Virus record (IMG/VR): IMGVR_UViG_3300033141_003730
Coordinates: 1 to 25,092 of that record
Direction: 5' to 3' (one strand)
DNA: 25,092 nucleotides
DNA from: a virus
A program made the translations under genes and the position numbers. A model generated the notes under the pieces. It was not told the origin of the DNA. It saw nothing but the letters and a program-made list of their open reading frames with translations, and searched no databases. Shown here one piece after another: positions 20,534 to 24,139 of this stretch. Numbering within the stretch: the stretch's first letter is position 1; every line of letters begins with the position of its first letter.

Positions 20534-20785
20534 TCATTCCTTCCCCTCAGCACCACGGGGCCGACGGTTTCCCTCCTTTCCCGTCGGCCCCACCTTTTTT
20601 TTCTTGTACAGTTTACGGATGGCCGCGCGCGCCGCGGCGGAGGGGGGCTTCCCCGCGGCCCAGTCGTAGAGTGTCCTTTCGGGCACCCCGAGCTCGGCGG
20701 CGATGCTTGACCATGTCATGCCGCTCGCGCGCTTCCGGCGGTGATCATCGCCGTGGAGGGCGTGGAGCTGTTCATACCAGCTCAT
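20534..20785 (-). CDS. Small helix-turn-helix protein, last gene of the accessory operon (Aca-like by layout)
   Basis: From ATG 20785 (GAGGAG upstream) the product is 83 aa. Its middle reads MTWSSIAAELGVPERTLYDW, a clear helix-turn-helix (helix 'WSSIAAEL', turn 'GVPE', recognition helix 'RTLYDWAAG'). The C-terminal tail is Lys/Gly/Arg-rich and overlaps the late terminator. It overlaps the upstream gene by 14 bases. As a small HTH protein at the end of an operon whose promoter contains a palindrome, it matches the layout of anti-CRISPR-associated (Aca) autorepressors. No Aca family membership could be checked, so repressor function is an inference. Confidence 0.65.
   Translation of the reverse strand: MSWYEQLHALHGDDHRRKRASGMTWSSIAAELGVPERTLYDWAAGKPPSAAARAAIRKLYKKKKVGPTGKEGNRRPRGAEGKE
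20557..20602 (+). terminator. Strong rho-independent terminator of the late transcript
   Basis: GGGGCCGACGG and CCGTCGGCCCC form a perfect 11-bp stem around a 13-base loop, followed by eight Ts at 20595-20602. The element lies inside the 3' coding end of the minus-strand helix-turn-helix gene, whose Lys-Lys-Lys-Lys codons are the T-run read on the other strand. It stops late transcription from running into the oppositely oriented operon. Confidence 0.9.
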
Positions 20786-21131
20786 CGTGCTCCTCAAGGA
20801 ATTCGGGATAGAATTCCTTGAGCCCTGGGAAATCTTCGGGCTCTGCGAAATACTCGTCGAAGGATACGGTGCGGATCATCTCCGCAACCTCCTCGTCGAC
20901 GGCGTCGCGGAGGCACTCCTCGCGGATGGCGAGGAGCTCCTCCTCCGAGTACCATTTGGCCGGCGTATGCCAGCCTGTGCTGACCTCGTTCTCGCTTTTT
21001 CCCATCCAGCCCTCGCGGCCGGTGAACTTGTGTCCCGGCCGGACAAGCTGGTGATAGGGGGCCACATGCCCATCCCACAGATAGCCGGACGGCGAGGTAC
21101 TCGTGATGGCAAGAGCTATTTTGCGTGTCAT
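20772..21131 (-). CDS. Hypothetical acidic protein in the accessory operon
   Basis: This 119-aa protein starts at ATG 21131 after AAAGGAGGAAACA, a consensus ribosome binding site. The N-terminal half (KIALAITSTSPSGYLWDGHV, then GREGWMGKSENEVSTGWHTP) is Gly/Trp/His-rich. The C-terminal half is strongly acidic (SEEELLAIREECLRDAVDEE and YFAEPEDFPGLKEFYPEFLE). A compact, acidic, family-less protein is typical of phage inhibitors, including many anti-CRISPRs, but nothing shows this directly. Confidence 0.6.
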   Translation of the reverse strand: MTRKIALAITSTSPSGYLWDGHVAPYHQLVRPGHKFTGREGWMGKSENEVSTGWHTPAKWYSEEELLAIREECLRDAVDEEVAEMIRTVSFDEYFAEPEDFPGLKEFYPEFLEEHDELV

Positions 21132-21143
21132 TGTTTCCTCCTT

Positions 21144-21164
21144 TGGTTTGCCTCATCAGCGCCG
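21144..21164 (-). repeat. Intergenic direct repeat, copy 1 (of two)
   Basis: On the + strand this reads TGGTTTGCCTCATCAGCGCC followed by G. It covers the stop codon of the 80-aa gene and the spacer before the 119-aa gene. The identical 21-base copy is at 21418-21438, upstream of the 80-aa gene. Confidence 0.85.
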
Positions 21165-21398
21165 CTCGATTACCCAAAACGGGTGTCCAGTGACTGTAAG
21201 GCCTACTATCACGTCTGATCCTGCTGGGTGTCCTTCCCAGTCCTCTTGGAGAATTGCAGTTGTGTATTCCTCGTCTTCCGGGTCAAGCCCGCAGGCGCGC
21301 ATGATTTCGTCGTAGTCGTCGACACCAAGATTTGCGTCACCTAAAGGAACGGCAGCCGGGTTGGCGAATACGTATTTGTGCAACCTAAATTTGCTCAT
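21156..21398 (-). CDS. Hypothetical small acidic protein in the accessory operon
   Basis: This 80-aa protein starts at ATG 21398 after AAAGGAGGGAAAA. It is acidic (GDANLGVDDYDEIMRACGLD, then PEDEEYTTAILQEDWEG) and ends VTGHPFWVIERR. No family is recognised. It is the second gene of the operon. The stop region and the spacer after it repeat the spacer upstream of its own start. Like the next gene it is a candidate inhibitor of a host defence by position only. Confidence 0.6.
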   Translation of the reverse strand: MSKFRLHKYVFANPAAVPLGDANLGVDDYDEIMRACGLDPEDEEYTTAILQEDWEGHPAGSDVIVGLTVTGHPFWVIERR

Positions 21399-21417: not shown

Positions 21418-21438
21418 TGGTTTGCCTCATCAGCGCCG
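21418..21438 (-). repeat. Intergenic direct repeat, copy 2
   Basis: This is identical over 21 bases to 21144-21164 and lies just before the ribosome binding site of the 80-aa gene. Repeated gene-boundary sequence suggests that one small gene was inserted, duplicated or swapped by recombination at matching spacers. Confidence 0.85.
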
Positions 21439-21481: not shown

Positions 21482-21922
21482 CTAGCCCTCGTCGATTACG
21501 CGATAGCGCCGAGGCTCTTTGGCATAGAGCCTGACCTGTTCTAAGGACAGCTCTTGTCCCCGGAGCTCGGGCGGCAGGTTAAGACTGATAGCCACTACCT
21601 CTGCCGCCTCGGCAGCGAGGTGTAGCGGGAGTACGCCAAATACCTTCCGCCCCTTGACGTCCTCAGGCCGGGCGTGGGCAATAACCCGGACATCCCGACC
21701 GATTAGCCCCAGCTCCCGCAGGTACTCTACGAGAGCCGGGTGGCGGGTGACCACCACGGGGCGGTCAAAATTATGAGCCTGCAAATCAGATATCCGATCT
21801 GCCTGCTCCTGGAACGGGAAATCCGCCGCGAAGCTACCATCGCAGTGCTCGCAGTAGAACCCCCCCTCCATGGTGGCCGCCATCGGCTCCATGCAGAATG
21901 GACAGGAAATTTTCTTGCTCAT
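21482..21922 (-). CDS. Zinc-ribbon protein with Csx16-like domain (candidate type III CRISPR antagonist / ring nuclease)
   Basis: This 146-aa product starts at ATG 21922 (AGGAGGAAACG upstream). Residues 7-27 form a zinc ribbon: C7-P-F-C10 and C24-E-H-C27. Residues about 54-143 resemble Csx16 (VVA1548-type), a CRISPR-associated family: V58-TRHPALVEYLRELG, then K93-VFGVLPLHLAAEAAEVV, then LPPELRGQELSLEQV, ending YRVI. Csx16 has been linked to type III systems and to removal of cyclic oligoadenylate signals (ring nuclease activity). No cas genes or array are nearby; the gene sits in a phage. I infer a possible phage defence-evasion role. It is the first gene after a regulated promoter. The zinc ribbon is not part of the usual family layout as I know it. 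Confidence 0.75.
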   Translation of the reverse strand: MSKKISCPFCMEPMAATMEGGFYCEHCDGSFAADFPFQEQADRISDLQAHNFDRPVVVTRHPALVEYLRELGLIGRDVRVIAHARPEDVKGRKVFGVLPLHLAAEAAEVVAISLNLPPELRGQELSLEQVRLYAKEPRRYRVIDEG

Positions 21923-21973
21923 CGTTTCCTCCTGCCGTTTGTTGGTTGCTATCTCATCCTGTCTCATACTTAT

Positions 21974-22002
21974 AATATACTGCGGTGACCGCAGTATGTC
22001 AA
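21974..22002 (-). promoter_or_regulatory. Promoter with palindromic operator for the accessory operon
   Basis: On the minus strand, TTGACA (22002-21997), a 17-base spacer and TATATT (21979-21974) form a near-perfect sigma70-type promoter. The spacer is filled by a perfect inverted repeat with arms ATACTGCGGT and ACCGCAGTAT separated by one base (21977-21997), overlapping both hexamers. A repressor bound there would block RNA polymerase. The HTH protein at the end of the operon is the natural candidate, the phage repressor the alternative. Confidence 0.85.
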
Positions 22003-22064: not shown

Positions 22065-22083
22065 CGTGACGCAGGCGTGACGC
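22065..22083. repeat. Arm-type integrase-binding motif, left arm of attP
   Basis: CGTGACGC AGG CGTGACGC: two 8-base direct repeats 11 bp apart. The same 19 bases occur at 22316-22334 on the other side of the tRNA core. Such paired repeats flanking a core are the pattern of arm-type sites bound by the N-terminal domain of tyrosine integrases. Confidence 0.7.
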
Positions 22084-22287: not shown

Positions 22288-23370
22288 TCACGAGTTAGCG
22301 CCGCCGGTTTTCCGACGTGACGCAGGCGTGACGCTGGGCGCGGCGGGAAGATCGGGGACGCGGAGGTCCTCGGGCCGCTGGCGATAATACAATTTGGCGG
22401 TGTCGGGCTGGGTCCATCCCATGTAGTGCATCAGCTCGAGCATGGACATGTGCGGCGCGAGGTGGGTTGCAGTGGTGGCGCGGATATCGTGCACCCGGCC
22501 GGGTGGGTATTTGTTGTCCTTGAGGATCTTACGGAGTCGTTTGCGGGCCGCCTGGGAGTAATCGCGGACGCGCCCGTCGGTCGTCGGCAGCGGACGGTCG
22601 TCGGGCCAGAAGTAATAGCCGTTGTTGCCCGGATCGAGCGAGTCGAGGTGATCGCGCAGTTGAGGGGTGAGCGGGATGTCCTGGAGCTGACCGCGCTTGC
22701 CGCGTGCGAAGGAGATCACCCCACGCTTGCGGTCGATGTGCGAGACGTGGAGCTGGAGCACCACGCCGACGCGCTGACCGGACAAGTACAAGAATTTGTA
22801 GAGGTCGCCGAATTGGGGGTCGGCGAACAGGGCGCGCAGCTCCATCTCGGAGTAGATGCGCTGACGCTTCGGAATGTCACGGAAAAATGCGGAGGCGAAC
22901 CAGGGCTTGGAATCGTAGGTGTCGGGCATATAGCCCCAGGAGTCGAGCAGGTTGAGCGCGGAGCGGATGTGAGTGAGGTCCGAGTTTATACCGCGGCGAC
23001 GCCTGCCGTCGGAGCGCAGCTGGGCGGAGTAGGCGTTCAGATGTTCGGGCCGGAGCTGGTCGAGGTAGACTATCCCGCGCCTGGCGAGGTAGCGCTGGAA
23101 GTTGCCGAGGACCGTTTTGTAGCAGGTTCCGGTCTTGTGGTTACGGTTGGCGCGCTTGGCGTCGACGACCTGGTCGAAGGCATCGTCGATTCGGGATCGC
23201 CTGAGGCTTTCTTGCCGCTCGGCCTCGGCGCGCTCGTATGCCCGCCAGAGCATGTGTAGCGGCGTTGACGCCGGCAGGCCGAGCGAGTAGCGGACCCGCC
23301 GGCCATGGGTCTGGGTATCGACCCAGTAGAAGCCGGCGCGCAAAATGAAAGGGGATTTGCGTCGAGCCAT
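22288..23370 (-). CDS. int: Tyrosine-recombinase phage integrase
   Basis: This 360-aa protein catalyses site-specific integration at the tRNA-Arg core. The N-terminal 60 residues form a beta-rich arm-binding-type domain (FILRAGFYWVDTQTHGRRVR). Residues about 60-160 are the core-binding SAM-like domain (YKTVLGNFQRYLARRGI). The catalytic domain has R200 (LSGQR), Lys near 225, H294-D-I-R297, W319 in place of the usual His in 'GH', and nucleophile Y328 (TAKLYYR). AGGAGG lies before ATG 23370. The gene begins only 9 bases after the repressor stop, so both are probably on one transcript. The last codons overlap an arm-type site. Confidence 0.93.
   Translation of the reverse strand: MARRKSPFILRAGFYWVDTQTHGRRVRYSLGLPASTPLHMLWRAYERAEAERQESLRRSRIDDAFDQVVDAKRANRNHKTGTCYKTVLGNFQRYLARRGIVYLDQLRPEHLNAYSAQLRSDGRRRRGINSDLTHIRSALNLLDSWGYMPDTYDSKPWFASAFFRDIPKRQRIYSEMELRALFADPQFGDLYKFLYLSGQRVGVVLQLHVSHIDRKRGVISFARGKRGQLQDIPLTPQLRDHLDSLDPGNNGYYFWPDDRPLPTTDGRVRDYSQAARKRLRKILKDNKYPPGRVHDIRATTATHLAPHMSMLELMHYMGWTQPDTAKLYYRQRPEDLRVPDLPAAPSVTPASRRKTGGANS
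22316..22334. repeat. Arm-type integrase-binding motif, right arm of attP, inside the integrase gene
   Basis: Same 19 bases as at 22065-22083 (two CGTGACGC units, 11 bp apart). It lies within the codons for the last 15 residues of the integrase, so the binding site and the C-terminal coding sequence coincide. Confidence 0.7.
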
Positions 23371-24110: not shown

Positions 24111-24139
24111 TTGACTTGGCGCATCCGCCAACATATATT
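24111..24139 (+). promoter_or_regulatory. Rightward early promoter with dyad in the spacer
   Basis: TTGACT (24111-24116), a 17-base spacer and TATATT (24134-24139) match the leftward promoter's hexamers exactly. The spacer holds TTGGCG-CATC-CGCCAA (24116-24131), a perfect 6-bp dyad. It drives the Cro-like gene and those after it. Confidence 0.8.

Follow-up and report, generated by a model that had tools for sequence, protein, structure and literature searches.

Does a temperate phage gene that joins a zinc ribbon to a Csx16 domain encode a viral ring nuclease directed against type III CRISPR? To our knowledge, few anti-type III CRISPR proteins are known. The gene is located in the window, i.e., the whole stretch of DNA analyzed here, an IMG/VR record of 25,092 bases taken in full. 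The original prediction, made from the sequence alone, regarded the gene as a fusion of a CxxC...CxxC ribbon with a Csx16-like domain and suggested that its product may neutralize type III signaling as a viral ring nuclease. It described ring nuclease activity in the Csx16 group as proposed or shown; for Csx16 the activity is now shown and cA4 specific, the enzyme having been verified biochemically to cleave cA4 in vitro (PMC12409355). Published counts of ring nucleases in phages are 36 genomes for AcrIII-1 versus 2 for Csx16, and phage Csx16 as such is thus already known, the window not being the first case (PMC12409355).

Domains of the phage protein

The gene is encoded on the minus strand, which was not given in the original prediction, with an ATG start at 21922, a stop at 21482, and a strong Shine-Dalgarno sequence (AGGAGG) at 21928 to 21933, upstream of the start. 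The gene and its parts are as follows.

21482..21922, minus strand: zinc ribbon-Csx16 fusion gene, 146 amino acids (P0001), based on the ORF, the PF09652 and PADLOC profiles, and the Shine-Dalgarno sequence
21842..21904, minus strand: putative C4 zinc ribbon, residues 7 to 27 (C7, C10, C24, and C27), based on sequence, AF2 strands, and nonsignificant Foldseek matches
21764..21814, minus strand: predicted helical linker, residues 37 to 53, from the AF2 model (pLDDT of about 57 to 89)
21497..21754, minus strand: Csx16 (PF09652) ring nuclease domain, residues 57 to 142, based on the profile match and AF2 (pLDDT of 92 to 97)

The original prediction had named a Pfam and TIGRFAM profile search as its check, and the Pfam part stood. 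The window protein matched PF09652 with 70.9 bits (cut-off of 25) over profile positions 2 to 90 of 91, far beyond chance (E = 1.1e-19), and it also matched the PADLOC Csx16 model (E = 1.4e-18). The TIGRFAM part did not, as TIGR02620, the narrower NCBI equivalog of CRISPR-associated members, gave 26.2 bits, below its cut-off of 46.35. The window protein is a member of the Pfam Csx16 family outside the narrower TIGR02620 set. The predicted signatures TRHP (59 to 62), GVLPLHLAAE (96 to 105), and LPPELRGQEL (116 to 125) are all present, and every residue invariant across 23 mostly phage-borne Csx16s is retained (R60, H61, L64, G96, P99, L102, R121, G122, E124, and L125). R60, H61, G96, P99, L102, and RGxEL are common to the window protein and one CRISPR-locus copy, and the family-conserved residues T/S-R-H, G..P, and RGxEL are present in the window protein. 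A sequence search of the PDB returned only designed ankyrin repeats, which aligned to the LPLHLAA stretch and were judged to be chance matches.

In a structural comparison of the modeled Csx16 domain, most of the top ranks went to ring nucleases and CARF domains (Cam1, Sis0455, Cad1, and Sso2081), with Z scores of 3.0 to 4.3 (4.3, the best value, for the Cam1 CARF domain and 3.9 for the ring nuclease Sis0455); unrelated Rossmann proteins scored similarly. These low values are in line with the DALI Z score of 4.8 reported between Csx16 and a viral Crn2 (PMC12409355) and are not decisive for the predicted fold. A Foldseek search with the model of the window protein returned no significant match.

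The two CxxC knuckles of the ribbon, C7/C10 and C24/C27, lie where the original prediction placed them and are carried by a predicted beta-hairpin, the strands of which occur in both AF2 models. The ribbon region had pLDDT values of 57 to 80, and AF2 modeled the isolated ribbon only weakly (pLDDT of 69). No curated family cut-off was reached by the ribbon, with Zn_ribbon_6 giving E values of 0.11 for the whole protein and 0.012 for the ribbon alone, and Foldseek matches of the isolated ribbon were below significance and mostly to zinc ribbons of RNA polymerase and ribosomal proteins. The assignment as a zinc ribbon rests on the cysteine pattern, the AF2 hairpin, and these subsignificant Foldseek matches, and zinc binding is putative.

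Phage setting and the csx16 operon

The window is derived from a temperate tailed phage, with genes for a terminase, a portal protein, a major head/capsid protein, a tape measure protein, an integrase, and an S24-type repressor. Viral matches of the portal protein reached only about 24 to 26% identity, and a search of the same kind found no relatives of the integrase among viral contigs. Neither Cas10 (palm domain) nor Cas1 was found in the 25-kb contig, which may be a fragment, and this agrees with the predicted phage setting lacking cas genes; type III cas genes, the mark of a CRISPR accessory gene, do not adjoin csx16. The large terminase gene is seemingly split over two frames, 82 to 822 (the part with a Walker A-like motif) and 449 to 1519 (the rest), which appears to be a frameshift, a sequencing error, or a programmed event. 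An identical 19-nt repeat, CGTGACGCAGGCGTGACGC, flanks the 3' end of the integrase gene at 22065 to 22083 and 22316 to 22334, and its copies may belong to attP or serve as integrase arm sites. The features around csx16 are as follows.

22288..23370, minus strand: tyrosine integrase, temperate phage context
23380..24201, minus strand: CI-like repressor with HTH and S24 peptidase, temperate phage context
21974..22002, minus strand: sigma70-type promoter, TTGACA-17-TATATT, 11 of 12 matches
21977..21997, no strand: 21-bp palindrome ATACTGCGGT-N-ACCGCAGTAT, putative operator, filling the spacer between the -35 and -10 elements
21156..21398, minus strand: orf80, second operon gene, no Pfam match and only a weak PHROG match
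20772..21131, minus strand: orf119, third operon gene, no matches
20534..20797, minus strand: small HTH protein, last operon gene, candidate Aca-like autorepressor (HTH_23, phrog_4779)

The csx16 gene is the first of four codirectional genes, followed by orf80, orf119, and the small HTH gene, with gaps of 83 nt and 24 nt and then an overlap in which the HTH gene starts inside the end of orf119. Between the four genes, a scan predicted neither a terminator nor another promoter on the minus strand. The near-consensus csx16 promoter, located 52 to 80 bp before the gene, is the best promoter-like site of the 4-kb region scanned, and the palindrome within it, 55 to 75 bp upstream of the ATG, is the only perfect inverted repeat (arms of ≥9 and loop of ≤3) in the whole 25-kb window. 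By simple arithmetic, about 0.1 such repeats with 10-bp arms would be expected by chance per 25 kb, and far fewer in a promoter spacer. The last gene encodes 87 amino acids, or about 82 if translation begins at the ATG that overlaps orf119 at its end, and it matched HTH_23 above the cut-off (E = 4.1e-6) and the transcriptional regulator family phrog_4779 (E = 4e-5). An identical 21-nt repeat, TGGTTTGCCTCATCAGCGCCG, was observed at two gene junctions of the operon, beside the ribosome binding sites (21144 to 21164 and 21418 to 21438).

According to a survey of acr-aca operons, their promoters are near consensus, an inverted repeat is always part of the core promoter, and the HTH genes are located downstream (PMC9410906). 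In the csx16 operon, too, the inverted repeat belongs to the core promoter, less than 150 bp from the first gene, and a codirectional HTH gene lies downstream, and the 83-nt gap between csx16 and orf80 exceeds the 55-nt operon rule of that survey. By analogy, we infer that the HTH protein binds the promoter palindrome. No detectable relative ties it to a known Aca family, and searches for viral relatives of orf80, orf119, and the HTH protein found none, so that these genes gave no basis for extending guilt by association. No comparable promoter palindrome occurred at the other csx16 loci, and the operon wiring was seen for the window phage only. Control of csx16 by the phage's own CI was considered and rejected, as the palindrome of the divergent cI/cro region is a different one, which makes a separate repressor for csx16 more likely. 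This second palindrome, TTGGCG-CATC-CGCCAA (about 24116 to 24131), lies in the spacer region of a rightward early promoter by the repressor gene (24111 to 24139) and is likely a CI/Cro operator.

Relatives and evolution of phage Csx16

One degenerate-motif scan of viral contigs, with the motif seeded on the window protein, retrieved 23 other IMG/VR loci with Csx16 at 39 to 86% identity, including a few near-duplicates. A terminase match was found in 16 of the 21 viral records searched (the window's record included), whereas Cas10 was found in none of 22 and Cas1 in none of 21. In an annotated phage collection of 50,697 records, Csx16 occurred only in the archaeal viruses Drs3 (two records) and PhiF3, in line with the two phage genomes published (PMC12409355). 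Two further copies came from the genome collection and were judged from their ORFs: L032 has a terminase-like gene and looks phage derived, and L031 is a prophage-like region with csx16. The L031 genome carries a type III-B locus on another contig (cas6, cmr1, cas10 with GGDD, cmr3, and cmr4) and is a fitting setting for an anti-type III gene. No more Csx16 turned up when the phyla to which the two host MAGs belong were scanned. At L031:8015-9306, the bare csx16 directly follows an ORF with two divergent tandem Csx16-like domains, the motifs of which are partly lost and which is possibly a pseudo-dimer or a sponge. Tandem domains also occur in a 261-amino-acid protein (P0002) encoded by a plasmid of Allomeiothermus silvanus (L005:2995-3780), where the gene adjoins a conjugation gene and no cas gene is annotated within 3 kb.

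A phylogenetic analysis of 35 Csx16 domains, only four of which were CRISPR-locus copies and the viral set of which came from the motif seeded on the window protein, revealed two sides separated with a split support of 99/95. The CRISPR-locus copies fall on one side together with the viral contig L029, one archaeal plasmid, and the archaeal viruses. On the opposite side are two Deinococcota plasmids, the prophage-like copies, all other viral contigs, and the window protein. The TIGR02620 scores agree with this split, being 87 to 114 bits for CRISPR-locus copies versus at most 35.9 (L029) for all 23 of the mostly phage-borne alignment. These comparisons of sequences show a phage and mobile-element lineage of Csx16 lying apart from the few sampled CRISPR-locus copies and below the NCBI cut-off.

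The closest relative, L002, is a bare 107-amino-acid Csx16 in a 38-kb phage, with 86% identity over residues 53 to 142 and no ribbon. Between the two Csx16 domains, dN was 0.095 and dS was 0.617, a dN/dS of 0.15 that indicates purifying selection on the domain. A comparison of 21 window proteins showed that the two phages have only two others in common, both from the tail region (33 to 36% identity); judged from these sequences, the csx16 gene seems to travel on its own. The absence of the ribbon from so close a relative means that the fusion is recent or lineage specific, and the ribbon seems to have been gained by the window lineage or lost in L002 within a short divergence.

The original prediction called the zinc ribbon-Csx16 architecture new, and it was met nowhere else in the collections searched. 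A match of L017 from residue 1 was rejected as a second ribbon fusion, the matched stretch lying upstream of the gene's likely start, and no relatives in viral contigs were found that would make the ribbon a phage module shared on its own. Other phage Csx16s carry additions of other kinds, which indicates that these proteins are modular. L012 (671 to 1321) is extended at its N terminus and has a C-terminal tail holding several CxxC pairs, and L016 (5998 to 6348) has a C-terminal cysteine cluster, which suggests from sequence that putative zinc-binding additions to phage Csx16 arose more than once. L010, L013, and L014 have long extensions, that of L010 (5770 to 6360), N-terminal and about 100 amino acids long, being MazG-like by eye, with no family significant. 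On a plasmid of an uncultured archaeon (L007:4259-5285), csx16 is preceded, 4 bp away and in the same orientation, by an annotated zinc finger gene, and no further cas gene is annotated near csx16.

Proposed role and comparison with known systems

We put the probability that the window gene encodes a viral Csx16 ring nuclease, an anti-CRISPR protein against cA4-signaling type III systems under Aca-like control and with the ribbon as an add-on, at roughly 70%. This is the best reading because the conserved residues are intact, the protein belongs to the phage-side lineage, the control is acr-aca-like, and Csx16 is verified as cA4 specific (PMC12409355). The cautious suggestion of a viral ring nuclease in the original prediction thus holds up as a putative assignment, to which the promoter and HTH context and the phage clade lend independent support. 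On infection or in the lysogen, the host RNA polymerase would fire from the near-consensus promoter and Csx16 protein would be made early. As a CARF-like dimer, the domain would bind cA4 from activated Cas10 and cut it to linear products, so that with cA4 cleared the cA4-driven effectors would stay off. The HTH protein would then build up, bind the spacer palindrome, and shut the operon off in the manner of Aca proteins. The role of the ribbon is the least certain part; as a lineage-specific add-on, it would probably stabilize or oligomerize the enzyme or anchor it, close to the signaling site, to RNA or a complex rich in RNA.

The main rival is that the phage-clade Csx16 acts as a sponge or nuclease for another cyclic (oligo)nucleotide, e.g., in CBASS or another second-messenger defense. 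The ligand could have shifted in this clade, given its scores below the TIGR02620 cut-off and its distance from the sampled CRISPR-locus copies; moreover, the phage host is not known to have type III CRISPR, and Crn4, also a phage-borne ring nuclease, is of broad specificity (PMC12830947). However, both clades have the conserved core in common, a same-clade copy resides in the prophage-like region of a genome whose type III-B locus encodes an intact GGDD Cas10, and the Csx16 tested so far is cA4 specific (PMC12409355), and we regard another signal as unlikely. A prophage gene that damps type III signaling and thereby spares the lysogen from autoimmunity with the prophage as target, rather than serving lytic infection, would suit the position of csx16 beside the integrase and repressor genes, on their strand and with its own promoter, and the occurrence of other members in a prophage-like region (L031) and on Deinococcota plasmids. 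A strong promoter with a spacer operator instead suits an early burst followed by repression, and many relatives lie in contigs of 60 to 146 kb for which a temperate lifestyle is not established; self-protection in place of a lytic role is therefore quite improbable, although the two roles are not exclusive. That the gene is a functionless relic of a former cas locus captured by the phage can hardly be credited. Csx16 is otherwise a CRISPR accessory gene and the capture of single genes is common, but the dN/dS, the intact residues, the strong promoter and ribosome binding site, and the separate clade of the phage copies all argue against decay.

One search adds 23 further virus contigs to the Csx16s of phages and mobile elements, below the NCBI annotation cut-off. 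On balance, we lean toward a large, uncounted phage lineage of Csx16 anti-type III ring nucleases, distinct from that of the CRISPR loci and overlooked by current models, some of which have zinc-binding or other domains (the window protein, L012, and L016) and at least one of which would be encoded in an acr-aca-type autoregulated operon with two further anti-defense candidates. The window protein is the only phage Csx16 seen here that combines a zinc ribbon at the N terminus with an Aca-like operon. The operon offers one concrete, testable set of a candidate enzyme, operator, and repressor, and the domain fusions raise the question of whether viral ring nucleases are steered to the site of signal synthesis.

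Like acr-aca operons (PMC9410906), the csx16 operon has an anti-defense candidate first, an HTH gene last, and an inverted repeat in a near-consensus core promoter; it differs in its HTH protein without a detectable relative, its 83-nt gap after csx16, and the putative status of palindrome binding. Crn4b of phages and plasmids is also a small ring nuclease on mobile elements, and some phage Crn4 proteins have N-terminal extensions, the function of which is given as unknown (PMC12830947); its fold is unrelated, and the available part of that report mentions no zinc ribbon for the extension. AcrIII-1 (viral Crn2, DUF1874) has the role proposed here, that of a cA4-degrading viral ring nuclease blocking type III CRISPR, but it belongs to another protein family and is experimentally proven, whereas the role of the window protein is predicted from sequence. 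The Csx16s of Methanobacterium virus Drs3 and of PhiF3 are likewise carried by virus genomes; those viruses are archaeal, and their proteins fall on the CRISPR-locus side of the tree, lack a ribbon, and share about 34 to 38% identity with the window protein. With CRISPR-locus Csx16 (Cas_VVA1548, PF09652/TIGR02620), the window protein shares the full-length domain and the R-H, G..P, and RGxEL residues, but it is phage borne without cas genes, falls in another clade below the TIGR02620 cut-off, and adds an N-terminal zinc ribbon and helix.
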